This document shows, piece by piece, positions 937 to 14,345 of a DNA stretch of 37,403 nt. This stretch comes from Nodosilinea foveolarum (GTDB lineage: Bacteria; Cyanobacteriota; Cyanobacteriia; Phormidesmidales; Phormidesmidaceae), in NCBI GenBank assembly GCA_003242035.1, contig QBMC01000024.1, positions 1-37,403 of the forward strand. Reading direction: 5' to 3'. Below the pieces are notes generated by a model that did no database searches, was not told the origin of the DNA, and saw only the letters and a list, made by a program, of their open reading frames with translations. Position 1 is the stretch's first letter. Each line of letters starts with the position of its first letter. The position numbers were made by a program, and so were the translations under genes.

Positions 937-1577
937 CAATCGAGAGAACGTACTTTGGCATCCTCATAAATTTGATACCAAATGGCCTGAGCATTCGCCG
1001 TAATGTTGCCACGCGGCGGAAAAGCCGAGTATTTTAACCGACTGTCGAAGCGAACGTGCAGCCAGGGTACGCCATGCCCGTGCGTGTTGCACCACACCGT
1101 TTTCTCCTGCAAAATAGCCTCCAGACAAATCTCTCCTACCTGCTGCCAGAGTGATCGCCCCATCTCCCCCGACGCCGTTCGACAAAAAGCTCCAATATGA
1201 CCAAACTCTCCTACATTTTTGGGCACCAGCAACCGGGCATCTCCCGAAAAATTATCAAAAGTTGCCGTCAATTCCTCGGGGCCTAACGCGCTCAAGTGCT
1301 GATTAAAATCGTGCGGATTGGCTGGTCTAAACTGAGCCGGAAAAGCGATCGCAAAAAACGGATGCGTCTGCGCCGTATAAGGATGAATCGGGACAGGCTT
1401 CCATTCAAAATCAAACGGCAAATCTGCCCAAGTCTGATTCCAGCGATCGCAAAAATCACGATCTTCGACCAAAGCGCGAGCAATTTGCGCCCAGCTAAAC
1501 ACAGTTCCCTGTGAATCTACAAAGCGAACTAACCGAGCTTCTTTATGAGCGATCTCCACGGCTACTACTTCTCTCAC
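933..1577 (-). CDS. DUF6940-like conserved hypothetical protein
   Basis: This 214-residue soluble protein resembles, from memory, the DUF6940 family. Shared features are a central FDNFSGDARLLVPKN block, the segment SLWQQVGEICLEAI, and a C-terminal HGHGVPWLHVRFDSRLKY motif. Function is unknown. The start codon is GTG at 1577, inside a GTGA overlap with the stop of the upstream glycosyltransferase (1574), so translational coupling is likely and the gene appears to be the last cistron of the exopolysaccharide operon. The position suggests a role linked to polysaccharide production, but nothing in the sequence proves it. The 3' end meets the convergent DUF4058 gene. The coding region is well supported; the family name is less certain. 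Confidence 0.7.
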   Translation of the reverse strand: MREVVAVEIAHKEARLVRFVDSQGTVFSWAQIARALVEDRDFCDRWNQTWADLPFDFEWKPVPIHPYTAQTHPFFAIAFPAQFRPANPHDFNQHLSALGPEELTATFDNFSGDARLLVPKNVGEFGHIGAFCRTASGEMGRSLWQQVGEICLEAILQEKTVWCNTHGHGVPWLHVRFDSRLKYSAFPPRGNITANAQAIWYQIYEDAKVRSLDC

Positions 1578-2473
1578 ACCCGCTCAGAAACCCCACCCAT
1601 CCGCAGCCCAACCAAAGTCCTCACCGTCACCCACCGCACAAACACCAGCGTCATCACCACCTTCACCTTCTCTCGAACCCCTTTCAACTCAGGATGGCCT
1701 GCCATCTTAAACGCAAACCTGACCGGCGGCATTAAATGAAATCCTACCAGCTTGCAAAAGGCCAAGTTACCGGCCCAAACAGACTCTGCCTGCCGACAGC
1801 GCAAATCGTAAAACCCGCCCGCATGACGACTCGCCTGCCGCGCTAGCTGAGCAAACGAAGATCGCGCCGGATGTTGTACCCGCGCTTGCGCCGCATAAAC
1901 TTGCGCATAGCCTGCGGCAAACACCCGCTGCCCCCACTCCACGTCGCCGCTAGACTTCAGCGCCGGGTTAAATCGCCCCACCTGTTCGAACACCGCCGCC
2001 CAGGTAAACACGTTAGCCGTTGCCCCGTAGTGGTCTTGCGTCACAAACTTCTGCTGCGACAGCGCCATTACACTTTCAAACAATTCCACCGGATGCTGAG
2101 GATTATGCATCACAATTTCAACTGCTCCCACCACCAGCCCACAGTTTGGGTGCGATCGCAACGCCGCCACTCCCGCCTCAATCCAGCTAGCCGACGGCAC
2201 ACAGTCAGCATCGGTAAACGCCAACACCTTGCCCTTAGCCACCGAGATCCCTCGATTTCGCGCCGCATAAGAACCCGGCAGCGTCTCGCAAACCAGCCGC
2301 GCCGCCGGACAATCTGCCACGGCAGATACCATAGCCGCCAAATCTTCAGAGCCATTGTCCACCACAATCACCTCAAACGGCGAGTAGCGCTGAGCCTGCA
2401 GACAGTTCAGACAAACCCTTAGTCGTCTGGCATCGTTATAAACCGGAATAATGACAGAAACCAAAGGATTCAT
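1574..2473 (-). CDS. Family 2 glycosyltransferase (GT-A fold)
   Basis: The 299-residue protein begins with PLVSVIIPVYNDARRL and has EVIVVDNGSED and the metal-binding DxD motif in FTDADC, the classic GT2 order. GT2 enzymes move a sugar from a nucleotide-sugar donor to a growing acceptor, usually at the cytoplasmic face of the membrane. The C-terminal third (AGNLAFCKLVGFHLMPPVRFAFKMAG and after) is hydrophobic or amphipathic and may bind the membrane. It lies 9 bp downstream of the flippase gene and overlaps the DUF6940-like gene by 4 bp, so all three are probably co-transcribed. Donor and acceptor cannot be predicted. Length is normal for a single-domain GT2. Confidence 0.9.
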   Translation of the reverse strand: MNPLVSVIIPVYNDARRLRVCLNCLQAQRYSPFEVIVVDNGSEDLAAMVSAVADCPAARLVCETLPGSYAARNRGISVAKGKVLAFTDADCVPSASWIEAGVAALRSHPNCGLVVGAVEIVMHNPQHPVELFESVMALSQQKFVTQDHYGATANVFTWAAVFEQVGRFNPALKSSGDVEWGQRVFAAGYAQVYAAQARVQHPARSSFAQLARQASRHAGGFYDLRCRQAESVWAGNLAFCKLVGFHLMPPVRFAFKMAGHPELKGVREKVKVVMTLVFVRWVTVRTLVGLRMGGVSERV

Positions 2474-2482
2474 CGGTTCAGG

Positions 2483-3985
2483 CTACTTCTTTCGCAACAC
2501 TTCCGCCCATTGCTGGCTAAAAGCCCCCACAAACTGCCGCTCGCTGCGATTCAGCTCACCTAAAAACACTAGCAGTAAAGGAATCAGCCCACTTAGCGCC
2601 AACAGCTTCAGCACCAGCGACGGATCGGGCGTAATCCACTCCATGCCTAGAAAATATACCATCCCACTAGCGATCGCACTACGCACAAACGTCCCAACGG
2701 GTACAGATATTTGCCAAATTCGGTTAAGCGCCACTAAGCTAGCGATCGCCCCCAATCCAGACGTGCCCGCATTCACCCAGCAAGCGCCCATCTCTCCGTA
2801 GCTCGGCACAAACAGCGCATAGCCCACCGCTGAAATCGGCAGCATCGGAGCCACCAGCACCGCCGTCAAGTTTGGCCTTCCTGCCGCCGTCAACACCGCC
2901 GTCGCCACCGAAATCATCACCAGCCCCATCGCGCCAAAAATTAGCACCGCCAGCACCGGCCCCGCCACGCTAAACGCATCGCCATACACCACCCGCACAA
3001 TCGGCACCGCCGCCGCCGCCGCCAGCGCCGAAAACGGCAGCAGCGCCACCACCAGCCGCACCGAATTAAAGCTCATTTCCCTCGCGCTCGCCATCTCTTC
3101 CCGACGTAGGGCGCTATTCAACGTAGACAACAATAGCGGCGAAAAAGACAACGCAAAAACGCCAGGAACAAGGGCCAGATTCTGCGCTGCCCCATACACC
3201 CCCACCTGCTCCACCGTACCCCCCAAAGTCTTCAGCATGAATAGATCGAGCTTGTCGAATAGCCGCAGACTCGTCGCAAACAAGAACAGCGGCAGCGCGT
3301 AGCCAAACAGTCGCTGCGACGCGTAACCCGAGCGGCGGAACAAAGGCGGATGCACAAACCACCGGGCAACTATCAGCTCCGCTATTGAGGCTCCCAAACT
3401 GCCGAGAATCGCCCCCTCAATACTCCAGTTTGCGAACTCCACCAGCCCCGCAATTATCGCCAGCCGAACCAGCCAACGCACTGCGCTCGCCCCCGCCCGC
3501 GCCTGAAATAGCTCTCGCCCCATCAAAATTTGCCGATGCGCATCCGCCAGACAAAAAATCGGAATATCTAGCGCAAATAGTCGCAAATAGCCAACCGAAC
3601 TAGGAACATCCAGCAAAGCTGCAATCGGCCCAGCAAACACCCACAGCGCCAAGGCCGCCGCCGACCCAATCAAAAGATGGAGCTGAGCGATCGCACTCCC
3701 CACTGGCTGCCAATCGTCCTCATCGCTGACAAACTTCACTGCCGTCCGCGCAAAAATAGACGTAATCGTCAATTCCACCCAGCTCACCAGCACCGAGACC
3801 AGCGTCAGCACACCGTACCCATCCGGGCCTAAATTTCGCGTTAAAATTCCCGCCGTCACCAAACCCGTCGGAAACATCAACGCCTCCGCGATAAACACCC
3901 AGAAGGTGCCGCTCGCAAAATTCTGAGCCGCTGTTTTACGGGGCGGCTTATTAGGCGTTTTACGAACTGTCTTATCAGTCGGCAT
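2483..3985 (-). CDS. Wzx-like oligosaccharide flippase (MOP/MATE superfamily)
   Basis: This 500-residue integral membrane protein has about 12-14 hydrophobic segments. Near the N terminus is AAQNFASGTFWVFIAEALMF followed by GILTRNLGPDGYGVLTLV, the typical start of polysaccharide-biosynthesis flippases. Such proteins move undecaprenyl-diphosphate-linked oligosaccharides from the cytoplasmic to the periplasmic side of the inner membrane. The N terminus is short, basic and Lys/Pro-rich. Its place between glycosyltransferases and a UGM-like flavoprotein fits a Wzx/Wzy-type exopolysaccharide or O-antigen-like pathway. No Wzy polymerase or Wza/Wzc export gene is in the window. The ATG at 3985 has no strong Shine-Dalgarno, which is common in cyanobacteria. 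Confidence 0.87.
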   Translation of the reverse strand: MPTDKTVRKTPNKPPRKTAAQNFASGTFWVFIAEALMFPTGLVTAGILTRNLGPDGYGVLTLVSVLVSWVELTITSIFARTAVKFVSDEDDWQPVGSAIAQLHLLIGSAAALALWVFAGPIAALLDVPSSVGYLRLFALDIPIFCLADAHRQILMGRELFQARAGASAVRWLVRLAIIAGLVEFANWSIEGAILGSLGASIAELIVARWFVHPPLFRRSGYASQRLFGYALPLFLFATSLRLFDKLDLFMLKTLGGTVEQVGVYGAAQNLALVPGVFALSFSPLLLSTLNSALRREEMASAREMSFNSVRLVVALLPFSALAAAAAVPIVRVVYGDAFSVAGPVLAVLIFGAMGLVMISVATAVLTAAGRPNLTAVLVAPMLPISAVGYALFVPSYGEMGACWVNAGTSGLGAIASLVALNRIWQISVPVGTFVRSAIASGMVYFLGMEWITPDPSLVLKLLALSGLIPLLLVFLGELNRSERQFVGAFSQQWAEVLRKK

Positions 3986-5657: not shown

Positions 5658-6830
5658 CTACCCAGGACGCAGCCGATAGCGAGCCGTTGTATAGGCATAC
5701 ACCAAACCGCTATAGAAGAAGTAAAGCCAATGCCAGGGAACCGTCTTTAGCGCAAATAGCCAGCCATGCCGCTGATAAAAAAAGCGATATACCGGCAGGT
5801 TAATGAGCAATAGACCCAGGCCACACAGCAGCGCAGTTGTCCACCAGAGCAAAGACCCGCTAGCCAAACCCCAAACGGAAACGGTCGGACTTGCATCAAA
5901 CGCGATCGCACCCACCCCTACACCCACCGCCGAAAGCAGCAGCCCAAACACCAAAATCACGCTAACCTTGCTGCTCCAATTCAAGTTCAGCTCTTGGGTA
6001 AACCGCTGATAAAACGCAGGCCGCGTCCGCTGCACCTGCATTAACAAGTTCATCCAAGGCAACGCCCGATAAAAAATATCGGCTCGCAGCAGCGTCATAG
6101 GCGTCCATCGCTTCAGGTGTTTCACTTGGATATCCGAGCGCAAATGAATCGGATATCCGGCATACTTCAGTCGGTAACCCAGCTCAATGTCCTCAATGCA
6201 AGGCCGCCGATAGCCTTCATCAAATCCCCCTACCGCTTCAAATACAGGGCGACGAATCGCGCCACAAGCGCCCCAAAAGGTAGAGGCTTCGAGGCCCGCC
6301 TGCTGATGGGTGTAATGATGAATCAGGTTTTTATACTGCGAAAGAAAATTAGGCGCACCCGGCGCATCGTCGTAAGAGCCAATGAGCGCCGCTAAGCTAG
6401 CATCTGCCTCAAAGCTCTGGGCGACCTGTGCCAGCGTATTGGGATGCACTTCCACGTCAGCATCTACAAAAAACAAAATATCGCCGTTAGCCAACTTCGC
6501 GCCAATATTACGCGCCTTGGCAGGCCCGCCAGACTCCGGCAACCGAATTAGCCGCACCCCAGATGCTTCGGCCAAACGCCAGCTACCGTCAGAGTCACCG
6601 TCTGAGACCACAATAATCTCAACAGAGCGAGCGGCCATAATCGCAGACCCCGACTGATGAGCCGATAAGCGATCGCCCACAGGCCCGCGTTGAGTGATGC
6701 TCTGAGGGAGAGGCTTGACCGTAAAGTCGCGATTGACGGAGGCCGTAAGCGCCTTCAAGCAGCGCCGAAAGTCATCTCCACCGTTATAAACTGGAATAAC
6801 GACGGAAATTAAAGGATTAGAGTCGTGCAT
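5658..6830 (-). CDS. Family 2 glycosyltransferase with C-terminal membrane domain and an internal insertion
   Basis: The 390-residue protein has PLISVVIPVYNGGDDF at residues 7-21, EIIVVSDGDSDGS at 71-83, GGPAKARNIGA at 101-111 and the DxD motif FFVDADVEVHP at 120-130, all GT2 hallmarks. The C-terminal third carries at least three hydrophobic helices, so it is membrane-anchored and likely extends a lipid-linked or exported glycan. Residues about 36-68 form a polar insertion, with the HIP1 site coding inside it, between the first helix and second strand, where GT2 enzymes normally pass directly. The start is well supported by GAGG seven bases before the ATG (plus-strand 6838-6841). It is the first gene of the leftward cluster and a candidate promoter lies at 6954-6981. 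Confidence 0.88.
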   Translation of the reverse strand: MHDSNPLISVVIPVYNGGDDFRRCLKALTASVNRDFTVKPLPQSITQRGPVGDRLSAHQSGSAIMAARSVEIIVVSDGDSDGSWRLAEASGVRLIRLPESGGPAKARNIGAKLANGDILFFVDADVEVHPNTLAQVAQSFEADASLAALIGSYDDAPGAPNFLSQYKNLIHHYTHQQAGLEASTFWGACGAIRRPVFEAVGGFDEGYRRPCIEDIELGYRLKYAGYPIHLRSDIQVKHLKRWTPMTLLRADIFYRALPWMNLLMQVQRTRPAFYQRFTQELNLNWSSKVSVILVFGLLLSAVGVGVGAIAFDASPTVSVWGLASGSLLWWTTALLCGLGLLLINLPVYRFFYQRHGWLFALKTVPWHWLYFFYSGLVYAYTTARYRLRPG

Positions 6831-11570: not shown

Positions 11571-12623
11571 TCACATCGCCCCAGAATTTTTGCTAAACAG
11601 CACCATCACCGTCTTAAAGATGAGCTGAATGTCATACATTAGGCTCCACTTTCGCTGATACTGCAAATCCAGCCGAATTACGTCCTCAAACGAAGTCACC
11701 TTAGAACGTCCGTTGACCTGCCACTCGCCGGTCATCCCTGGCTTTACATTCAGCCGCTGCCACTGAGAAACCTCGTATTTTTCAATCTCATCTGGCGTCG
11801 GCGGACGCGTTCCAACTAGGCTCATATCGCCCTTAAGCACATTCCAAAACTGCGGAAACTCGTCCAGGCTAGTGCGCCGCAAAAACTTCCCAATCTTAGT
11901 AATTCGATGATCGTTGTCGTTCTTAAACAGCGGCCCCTCTAGCTTATTGACCACCTCTTTTTTGCGCGCCTCTGCGTCCACCACCATCGAGCGGAACTTC
12001 CAAATCTTGAAGCGCTTACCTAAAAACGAGCAGCGCGTTTGGGCAAAGAAAATGGGGCCACCGTCATCTAGCTTGATAATAATGCCGACCACTACCCACA
12101 AAATAGCCGTGAGCGTCAGGCCCATGAGTGCGCCGATAATATCCAACGCTCGCTTTGCCTTAGAGCGAACCGAGGGATGAGTTTCGGGTAAATTTCCCAG
12201 CGCCCGCTGGTAGCGCCCCCGCTTCAGCCGACCGCGCTGGCGCTGCTCCCGCTCTGTGGGCAGCGTTGACAGCCGCTCAATGTGAAAAACTTTGTCTAGC
12301 TCTGTTAACGAAAGCGCCATCATCACCTGGTTTGGCACATTTATCAGCCTTAGCTTCGCCCCTTTAGCTTCGCAAAGCTTATGGCAAATGACCAGAGAGC
12401 CAATGCCGCTGCTGTCTATAAATCGGGTTTGGGTAAAGTCGAGCACCACCTCTTTGAGAACTGTAGGGTGCTCGAATGCCTGTTGACAGCTACGCCTGAA
12501 CGACTCAGCTTCAGCTACGGTAAAAGATTGTGTAAGATGAATCGTACCCATTGACTCCAAAACCGATGCCTCAAAGCTGGCGGGGCTGAGCGAACTGGGT
12601 AAGCGGTTGTTGTGGCTAGTCAT
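11571..12623 (-). CDS. STAS domain-phosphoglycosyl transferase fusion (WcaJ/WbaP-like)
   Basis: The 350-residue protein has two domains. Residues about 25-118 form a STAS/anti-anti-sigma domain with FIDSSGIGSLV (68-78); Ser71 aligns with the serine phosphorylated in SpoIIAA-type proteins. A basic linker (about 120-157) follows. Residues 157-350 are a monotopic phosphoglycosyl transferase with one hydrophobic segment (162-183), FKIWKFRSMVVDAE, the catalytic Asp-Glu dyad in TSLDEFPQFWNVLKGDMSLVGTRPP (Asp254, Glu255) and the C-terminal PGMTGEWQVNGRS. PGTs transfer a sugar phosphate from a nucleotide sugar to undecaprenyl phosphate and start polysaccharide synthesis. The fusion suggests control of this step by serine phosphorylation, which is inferred. 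It probably works with the glycosyltransferase cluster at 933-6830. Confidence 0.92.
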   Translation of the reverse strand: MTSHNNRLPSSLSPASFEASVLESMGTIHLTQSFTVAEAESFRRSCQQAFEHPTVLKEVVLDFTQTRFIDSSGIGSLVICHKLCEAKGAKLRLINVPNQVMMALSLTELDKVFHIERLSTLPTEREQRQRGRLKRGRYQRALGNLPETHPSVRSKAKRALDIIGALMGLTLTAILWVVVGIIIKLDDGGPIFFAQTRCSFLGKRFKIWKFRSMVVDAEARKKEVVNKLEGPLFKNDNDHRITKIGKFLRRTSLDEFPQFWNVLKGDMSLVGTRPPTPDEIEKYEVSQWQRLNVKPGMTGEWQVNGRSKVTSFEDVIRLDLQYQRKWSLMYDIQLIFKTVMVLFSKNSGAM

Positions 12624-12957: not shown

Positions 12958-13626
12958 ATGACGCCCATCCGTCCGCGTCGTTTGACCTTGCCACTAGAGC
13001 CTAGCGTCACTATGTCCAAAGACAGTAGTCAATCCTTCCTCCTTTCAGACTCTGCCATGCAAGCAGCTAGCTACTCTACCTATCAAAACTTTCAATCCTC
13101 GCCTACGCTTTGCGCATCAGAACTTCAGAACTGGAAGCAGCGGATTGGACTTTTTCAAACGCATCTCCAAACAACGGCTACCCCGACGCAAGGTAGTTTA
13201 TTTGATACTACCAGTACGCAGACCTCGCTTGACAGCATCAAACCCTTCGAGTTGCGTCGTCAAAACACTGAATTTTGGCGCTGGCAGTTCGATGATGTCG
13301 GCGTCCCGGCTATGTATTTTGTCATCGACTACATTGCAACGGCTCAAAAAGGCCCGATTCTTTTATATATAGGAGAAACCGTAAAGTCTAACCAGCGATG
13401 GAAAGGCGTTCACGATTGCAAGCGCTATCTCACCAACTATCAGCAGGCCCATCGCGATACTGGGCTAAAGAGCGAGTTGGCGATCGCCTTTTGGCCCCAA
13501 GCTCCCGCCGACCGACCGGCCAGACAAAAGCTAGAGTCTCAGCTCATTTATAAATGGCGATCGCCCTTCAACAAAGAAAACTGGCGCTACTGGAACACCC
13601 CATTCATCACCGGCAAAGAACCCTAG
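12958..13626 (+). CDS. GIY-YIG nuclease-fold protein
   Basis: The 222-residue protein has a degenerate first motif, MYFV (119-122), a clear YIG in LLYIGET (137-139), a conserved Arg in NQRW (147), a Glu in KLESQLIYKW (193) and Asn in PFNKENW (205 and 208). These are the key positions of GIY-YIG endonucleases, so the fold and possibly activity are retained. The first 95 residues are Ser/Thr/Gln-rich with no recognised domain. The start may be the ATG at 12958 or the one at 13012 (MSKDSS); neither has a good Shine-Dalgarno. A Uma2-like nuclease gene follows 77 bp downstream. Substrate and role are unknown; mobile-element, repair and defence roles are all possible. Confidence 0.75.
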   Translation: MTPIRPRRLTLPLEPSVTMSKDSSQSFLLSDSAMQAASYSTYQNFQSSPTLCASELQNWKQRIGLFQTHLQTTATPTQGSLFDTTSTQTSLDSIKPFELRRQNTEFWRWQFDDVGVPAMYFVIDYIATAQKGPILLYIGETVKSNQRWKGVHDCKRYLTNYQQAHRDTGLKSELAIAFWPQAPADRPARQKLESQLIYKWRSPFNKENWRYWNTPFITGKEP

Positions 13627-13651
13627 ACCGAAACGCGGCAAACAGCCACGA

Positions 13652-13697
13652 TATAATCTAGACGTACGCTGTCCTTATAGTCGCCACAAACAGGAGA
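13652..13697 (+). promoter_or_regulatory. -10-like box and Shine-Dalgarno of the Uma2 gene
   Basis: TATAAT at 13652-13657 is 46 bp upstream of the Uma2 ATG, and AGGAGA at 13692-13697 lies six bases before that ATG, one of the better ribosome binding sites in the window. A matching -35 element is not evident. Confidence 0.45.
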
Positions 13698-13703
13698 ACT
13701 GCT

Positions 13704-14345
13704 ATGAGAGCTGTAAAAACACAAGTCCTAACAGATTGCTGGGTTTCAATGGCTTGGGATGAGTATGTAACCTGCTCGGAAGAGCCATCTCTAAAATCGG
13801 CAAAATGCTACTACCACGAAGGACACGGAAGATTTGAGATGCTACCAGTAGGGCCTAATCACGCCAAAGATCACACTGTCGCCAACGACGCAATTAAGCT
13901 TTTTTGCATTCTAAAATTCATCCCTATTACAGTGTTGGACAATGCTTCTTATCGAAAGGCCGGATGCGACGAATGCCAGCCTGATTTATCAGCTTATGTA
14001 GGTGACAAGGCAAATAAAGTACCTTCGTCCGGTGGGTTTATCAATCTCGATCTACAGGCTGCTCCCGATCTAGCTATCGAAGTGGCAAACACGTCGTTTT
14101 TAGATGATATTGGTGCGAAGCGATCGCTCTACGAAACCCTCAACATCTCAGAATACTGGATCGTCAACGTCGCCAAAGCAGAAGTCACCGCCTTCGAGAT
14201 ACTGAACCAGGGCAGTCAGCGGATCGCGACTTCCAAACTATTGAAAGGCTTCGAGTTCTCTGTACTAGAAGAAGCCCTGCGCCGCAGCCGTAAAACCGAT
14301 CAGAGCAAAGTAGGCAACTGGCTAATGCAGCAGTTTCAGTCGTAG
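13704..14345 (+). CDS. Uma2 family (DUF820) PD-(D/E)XK-type putative endonuclease
   Basis: The 213-residue protein shows the Uma2 pattern: ECQPDLSAYV around residue 90, PDLAIEVANTSFLDD, GAKRSLYETLNISEYWIVN and a C-terminal LLKGFEFSVLEEALRRS. The DL-EV and K-LYE residues correspond to the PD-(D/E)XK catalytic positions. Uma2 genes are strongly expanded in cyanobacteria, and their natural substrate is unknown. Two Cys (CDEC) just before the PDLS motif are unusual and could be incidental. The start is supported by AGGAGA. The 3' end is 5 bp from the convergent chrA gene. Full length compared with the usual 190-210 residues. Confidence 0.88.
   Translation: MRAVKTQVLTDCWVSMAWDEYVTCSEEPSLKSAKCYYHEGHGRFEMLPVGPNHAKDHTVANDAIKLFCILKFIPITVLDNASYRKAGCDECQPDLSAYVGDKANKVPSSGGFINLDLQAAPDLAIEVANTSFLDDIGAKRSLYETLNISEYWIVNVAKAEVTAFEILNQGSQRIATSKLLKGFEFSVLEEALRRSRKTDQSKVGNWLMQQFQS

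Follow-up and report, generated by a model that had tools for sequence, protein, structure and literature searches.

Control of the phosphoglycosyl transferases (PGTs) that initiate polysaccharide synthesis is poorly understood, and these enzymes draw on undecaprenyl phosphate, which is also needed for the cell wall (PMC12802240, PMC10942596). In Anabaena sp. PCC 7120, a 2021 review describes the product of all4160 as a glycosyltransferase that carries STAS at its N terminus (PMC8256260), and according to a second source the heterocyst envelope polysaccharide depends on this gene (PMC4390870); neither paper names a kinase partner of All4160. The STAS proteins SypA and HmpV govern polysaccharide and motility phenotypes through kinase/phosphatase pairs (PMC8256260, PMC6495340), their targets are unknown, and the unphosphorylated form is reported to be the active one for SypA and suggested to be so for HmpV (PMC8256260). 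A PGT is also the point of control in Myxococcus xanthus, where phosphorylated EpsW activates EpsZ (PMC12802240).

A first-pass annotation of the window (the whole stretch of DNA analysed here, 37,403 nucleotides from Nodosilinea foveolarum) had pointed to a gene that fuses a STAS domain to a PGT, and could not tell how well such fusions were described; through Anabaena all4160 they prove to be better described than it supposed (PMC8256260, PMC4390870). The gene, whose strand the first-pass annotation had not given, is a single open reading frame on the minus strand (11571..12623) with an ATG start and 350 encoded residues, and the plus strand over the same interval is full of stops. Residues 18-116 (12276..12572, minus strand) match the Pfam STAS family (PF01740, E=3e-15, 56.3 bits against a cut-off of 22.6) and have a SpoIIAA/RsbV-like fold. 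They contain the intact acceptor motif D70-S71-S72-G73-I74-G75, in which the triplet Asp70-Ser71-Ser72 (12408..12416, minus strand), as read from the sequence, carries the presumed phosphoacceptor Ser71. A variable linker (about residues 117-148) and an HPSxxS segment then precede the PGT (12156..12275, minus strand), the linker being 31 residues long in the window protein and 12-57 across fusions. Residues 157-343 (11595..12155, minus strand) form a complete monotopic PGT catalytic domain related to WbaP and PglC (PF02397, Bac_transf, E=5.1e-67, 225 bits against a cut-off of 27, profile positions 1-178 of 179), with a membrane helix in the AlphaFold model at residues 155-185 (12069..12161, minus strand) and the catalytic pair Asp254-Glu255 (11859..11864, minus strand), which is present in 149/149 fusions. 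Searching Pfam with the window protein gave no match to PF13727, the WbaP-type domain. Both the serine motif and the catalytic pair thus lie where the first-pass annotation had put them.

By sequence and by fold, the STAS half is closest among solved structures to SpoIIAA (including its SpoIIAB-bound form), TM1442 and RsbV, with SulP/prestin proteins behind them, and the PGT half to WbaP and PglC. The STAS domain is therefore of the SpoIIAA/RsbV type, in keeping with the earlier suggestion of a kinase-switched STAS, and a SulP-type assignment was rejected. The AlphaFold model places Ser71 at the opening of helix 71-86, the second helix, in a STAS domain with pLDDT mostly 80-94; the arrangement of the STAS half relative to the PGT half is unreliable in this model (pTM 0.55). 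In SpoIIAA the phosphorylated serine likewise sits at the start of a helix. The STAS half may act like an RsbV domain, but it is fused to a PGT and no sigma factor was noticed beside it, features by which it would not be a stand-alone antagonist that frees a sigma factor. The PGT half is best explained as a polyprenyl-phosphate hexose-1-phosphate transferase that would attach the first sugar of an exported polysaccharide to its lipid carrier.

A scan of named genomes found 80 full-length fusions of 53-74% identity, all of them cyanobacterial; among 386 genomes sampled across Cyanobacteriota, 97 full-length fusion places fell in 87 genomes, every one belonging to the window's own class. Because full-length fusions recur in other genomes, close relatives included, far more often than chance would allow, we rejected an assembly or annotation error, the outcome that the first-pass annotation had feared, and its guess that other cyanobacteria carry the fusion held. 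The closest relative of the window fusion, from Leptolyngbya sp. BC1307 (74% identity), is itself full-length and shares the gene order chromate transporter, fusion, Ycf66 and a long ORF of IleRS size. In the neighbourhood of the sister protein L008, the chromate transporter adjoins the fusion; in the window, a GIY-YIG gene (with a borderline Pfam score) and a Uma2 gene lie between the two (12958-14345), possibly as a recent insertion.

Comparison of 149 distinct fusions revealed that Asp70 and Ser71 are identical in all of them; no other position of the STAS half is invariant, whereas the PGT half has 55 such positions. Residue 72 is Ser in 143 and Cys in 6. The switch residues Asp70-Ser71 are thus under strict constraint. 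His149 and Ser154 of the HPSxxS segment are likewise invariant; a stand-alone PGT (L002) also has KHPSVQ, and this segment was therefore rejected as a fusion-specific joint. A proline in the PGT membrane helix, as studied in PglC, breaks the re-entrant helix and is typical of these enzymes, not strictly defining. Residue 178 (12090-12092) is Pro in 143/149 fusions; the window protein and its sister L008 have Val there, and the helix might then span the membrane instead of re-entering. In three genomes of one genus (G014, G070 and G087, loci L175, L176 and L177) the Asp-Ser pair is kept and motif glycines are lost (DSSGVV, DSSAII), which looks like a switch in decay, and a profile search of these genomes detected no kinase of the family described below.

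At 14-15 of the 80 named loci the fusion is followed, directly in several cases, by a small gene whose product is a HATPase_c_2 protein of the RsbW/SpoIIAB kind. With a kinase profile run across the 386 genomes, a same-strand kinase was found no more than 2.5 kb downstream at 34 of the 97 fusion places, where about 0.06 would be expected by a rough estimate from the density of such kinase genes. The gap between fusion and kinase is mostly 8-140 bp, and the kinase usually starts within about 150 bp downstream. Reading of loci added five more genomes, so that a kinase adjoins the fusion in 39/87 genomes; this count includes L183, where it lies on the opposite strand. The linked kinases keep the N-box Glu and Asn and the DxG motif without exception and form one clade (95% SH-aLRT, 49 rows). 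Four rows of this clade were not scored as same-strand fusion neighbours: one lies beside a fusion on the other strand, one is 851 bp from a fusion by coordinates, one stands at a contig start next to a truncated fusion of which the PGT end remains, and the last is located on a different contig. Linkage changes at least eight times, scattered over the fusion tree, and according to this tree and its loci a linked kinase is absent from the window's 14-row clade and from most Nostocales fusions, which form a separate 70-row clade. The search for RsbW and PP2C genes near homologues that the first-pass annotation had recommended was thus productive, with kinases as counted above and, at several loci, a SpoIIE phosphatase, in some with a STAS gene.

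This linkage bears on the possibility that the STAS domain is a scaffold, dimerisation or small-ligand domain that replaces a WbaP-like N-terminal domain, with a purely structural Ser71. WbaP dimers are held together by their N-terminal domain, which has also been proposed to mediate UMP feedback (PMC10942596), and Ser71 is invariant also in fusions that lack a linked kinase, including those of G014, G070 and G087, whose genomes hold no detectable kinase of the family. A dedicated kinase adjoining the fusion in so many genomes is unexpected for such a domain, however, and the only residues that the STAS half keeps without exception are the acceptor pair itself; we regard a structural role as quite improbable.

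Several loci contain more complete sets of partners. In L067 and L070 (Oscillatoria-type), the fusion is followed by the kinase and a PAS-SpoIIE phosphatase, then by a free STAS gene on the other strand, and in L081, L157 and L189 (Nostoc-type) by the kinase and a free STAS gene, with a SpoIIE phosphatase on the other strand that is a receiver-SpoIIE protein where read whole (L081, L189). L194 has the fusion, the kinase and a receiver-SpoIIE gene. The free STAS proteins of the fusion loci also carry DSSG. GT2 and Alg14-like genes stand just upstream in L081, and Alg14-like and GT28 C-terminal genes upstream of the fusion in L016, as expected for a polysaccharide pathway. A second, canonical STAS/SpoIIE/kinase module without a PGT (L200, L201, L202, L213, L214, L228-L230) occurs in several genomes that also hold the fusion, and the kinases of this module that the tree included do not group with the fusion-linked clade.

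The free STAS proteins raise the question of which component is the output. The fusion STAS could be a decoy that holds the kinase at the membrane or titrates it, so that glycan synthesis would report to, or restrain, a different output, for instance a sigma factor or the free STAS protein; kinases of the RsbW-like type have several partners, and free DSSG proteins adjoin fusion and kinase in L067, L081, L157 and L189. Most linked loci, on the other hand, consist of the fusion and the kinase alone, without a free STAS and with no sigma factor noticed nearby, which leaves the PGT as the natural output, and we consider a decoy improbable. The same loci offer nothing for the earlier idea that an anti-sigma-like kinase couples glycan production to gene expression, as no link to a sigma factor was seen. 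With a linked kinase in 39/87 genomes, and SpoIIE and free STAS genes at several loci, the PGT probably fills, in a partner switch, the output position that a sigma factor would otherwise hold.

We therefore read the STAS-PGT fusion as a PGT with a STAS receiver of a serine-phosphorylation switch, controlled by kinase and phosphatase through Ser71, with a probability of roughly 70%. Weighing against it are the fusions of the window's clade and of most Nostocales, which lack a linked kinase, the failure to find the linked kinase clade in the window genome, and G014, G070 and G087, which retain Ser71 but hold no detectable kinase of the family. According to this scheme, a GHKL (RsbW-type) serine kinase would bind the fusion STAS and phosphorylate Ser71, a SpoIIE-type PP2C phosphatase would take the phosphate off again, and the state of Ser71, or kinase binding itself, would set PGT activity; we infer both the phosphorylation and its effect on the enzyme. 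Where a free STAS protein is co-encoded, it would compete for the kinase in the manner of partner switching, and the PGT would occupy the usual position of the sigma factor. By analogy with SypA and HmpV, our guess is that the unphosphorylated form would be active. The broader proposal, that cyanobacteria widely use partner switching with the first enzyme of a polysaccharide pathway as output, made up of the STAS-PGT and its own GHKL kinase, with a free STAS and a receiver- or PAS-SpoIIE phosphatase added in some lineages, we hold with somewhat less assurance, as the likelier account of these loci. The fusion is already known; as far as the open-licence literature was searched, no paper was found that links it to a kinase, and the dedicated kinase and the complete sets are not described.

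The window organism presents a weaker case than the linked loci. Its fusion is flanked by the GIY-YIG gene, Ycf66 and ileS, and neither a kinase nor a SpoIIE phosphatase gene was found beside it in the window. Further along the same strand, about 5-10 kb off, lie a family-2 glycosyltransferase (5658..6830, minus strand, PF00535), an FAD enzyme, a flippase-like membrane protein (Polysacc_synt_3; 2483..3985, minus strand, PF13440) and a second family-2 glycosyltransferase (1574..2473, minus strand, PF00535), plausibly a polysaccharide group; from their proximity, the two glycosyltransferases and the flippase-like protein may belong to the same pathway as the fusion. The genome encodes three clear RsbW-like kinases (contigs 111, 37 and 29) together with several SpoIIE phosphatases and four candidate free STAS proteins, and neither searches nor the kinase tree found a member of the linked kinase clade among its genes. 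Phosphorylation control of the PGT, as the first-pass annotation proposed, is thus favoured by the linked kinases of other genomes, but neither the window nor the rest of its clade has a kinase next to the fusion.

Ser71 might be a kinase target in other lineages and the switch lost in the window's clade, leaving the enzyme constitutive; the 14-row clade without a linked kinase and the missing linked-type kinase in the window genome are what this would predict. The acceptor motif is nevertheless intact in the window protein, the genome retains its RsbW-like kinases and SpoIIE phosphatases, and one of these kinases adjoins NDP-sugar epimerase and GT4 glycosyltransferase genes. We give loss of the switch some weight and think it unlikely. 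For a receiver that is still switched, the partner kinase in the window organism would be of a type other than the linked one.

The kinase of this genome nearest to the linked clade lies on contig 111, after petB-petD and before the NDP-sugar epimerase and GT4 genes; the tree rejected it as an orthologue of the linked kinase. The order petB-petD (cytochrome b6f), RsbW-like kinase, GT4, seen at L160:5018-10632 on contig 111 of the window genome (G000), is conserved in several other cyanobacteria (L197, L203, L207, L209 and L212), and the epimerase joins the group in some genomes. A kinase of this petBD-linked orthogroup occurs in 43/55 genomes with an unlinked fusion and in 2/32 with only linked ones (Fisher P 3e-11); outside one dominant family the contrast is 3/13 against 2/32 (P 0.14), and nine genomes have such a kinase but no fusion. 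Because the contrast comes mostly from one family and nine genomes with such a kinase lack a fusion, we did not accept the petBD-linked kinase as a proven partner and kept it as a lead, in which role it is the best candidate partner in the window organism.

If the proposed switch exists, it would give direct and fast control of entry into the undecaprenyl-phosphate pool, and sugar-coat synthesis may be switched on and off directly by phosphorylation. A STAS-PGT with co-encoded kinase and phosphatase would put target and switch in one protein, and may explain post-translational control of heterocyst envelope polysaccharide synthesis via all4160.

Among described proteins, Anabaena All4160 is one of the closest by description, having the same order of an N-terminal STAS followed by a glycosyltransferase (PMC8256260). 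The window organism groups with Leptolyngbya-like cyanobacteria, and its polysaccharide is therefore probably other than that of All4160. WbaP and other large monotopic PGTs likewise join the PGT core to an N-terminal domain that is possibly regulatory (PMC10942596), but WbaP combines a four-helix bundle with a PF13727 domain, where the window protein has a STAS. With the RsbU/RsbV/RsbW and SpoIIE/SpoIIAA/SpoIIAB systems the fusion loci share the DSSG STAS acceptor, the GHKL kinase and the SpoIIE PP2C phosphatase, co-encoded at several of them; they differ in that the STAS forms one protein with a membrane enzyme, we noticed no sigma factor at these loci and the partners are unlinked in the window. 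HmpU/HmpV/HmpW of Nostoc punctiforme and SypA/SypE of Vibrio fischeri likewise place a STAS switch on polysaccharide or motility phenotypes, with the STAS as a separate protein, whereas that of the fusion is part of the enzyme. In the EpsW-EpsZ pair, an initiating PGT is likewise controlled post-translationally by a phosphorylated signalling protein (PMC12802240); EpsW, a receiver protein of the response-regulator type, works in trans on a large PGT, whereas the fusion carries a STAS with a serine acceptor in cis on a small PGT core.
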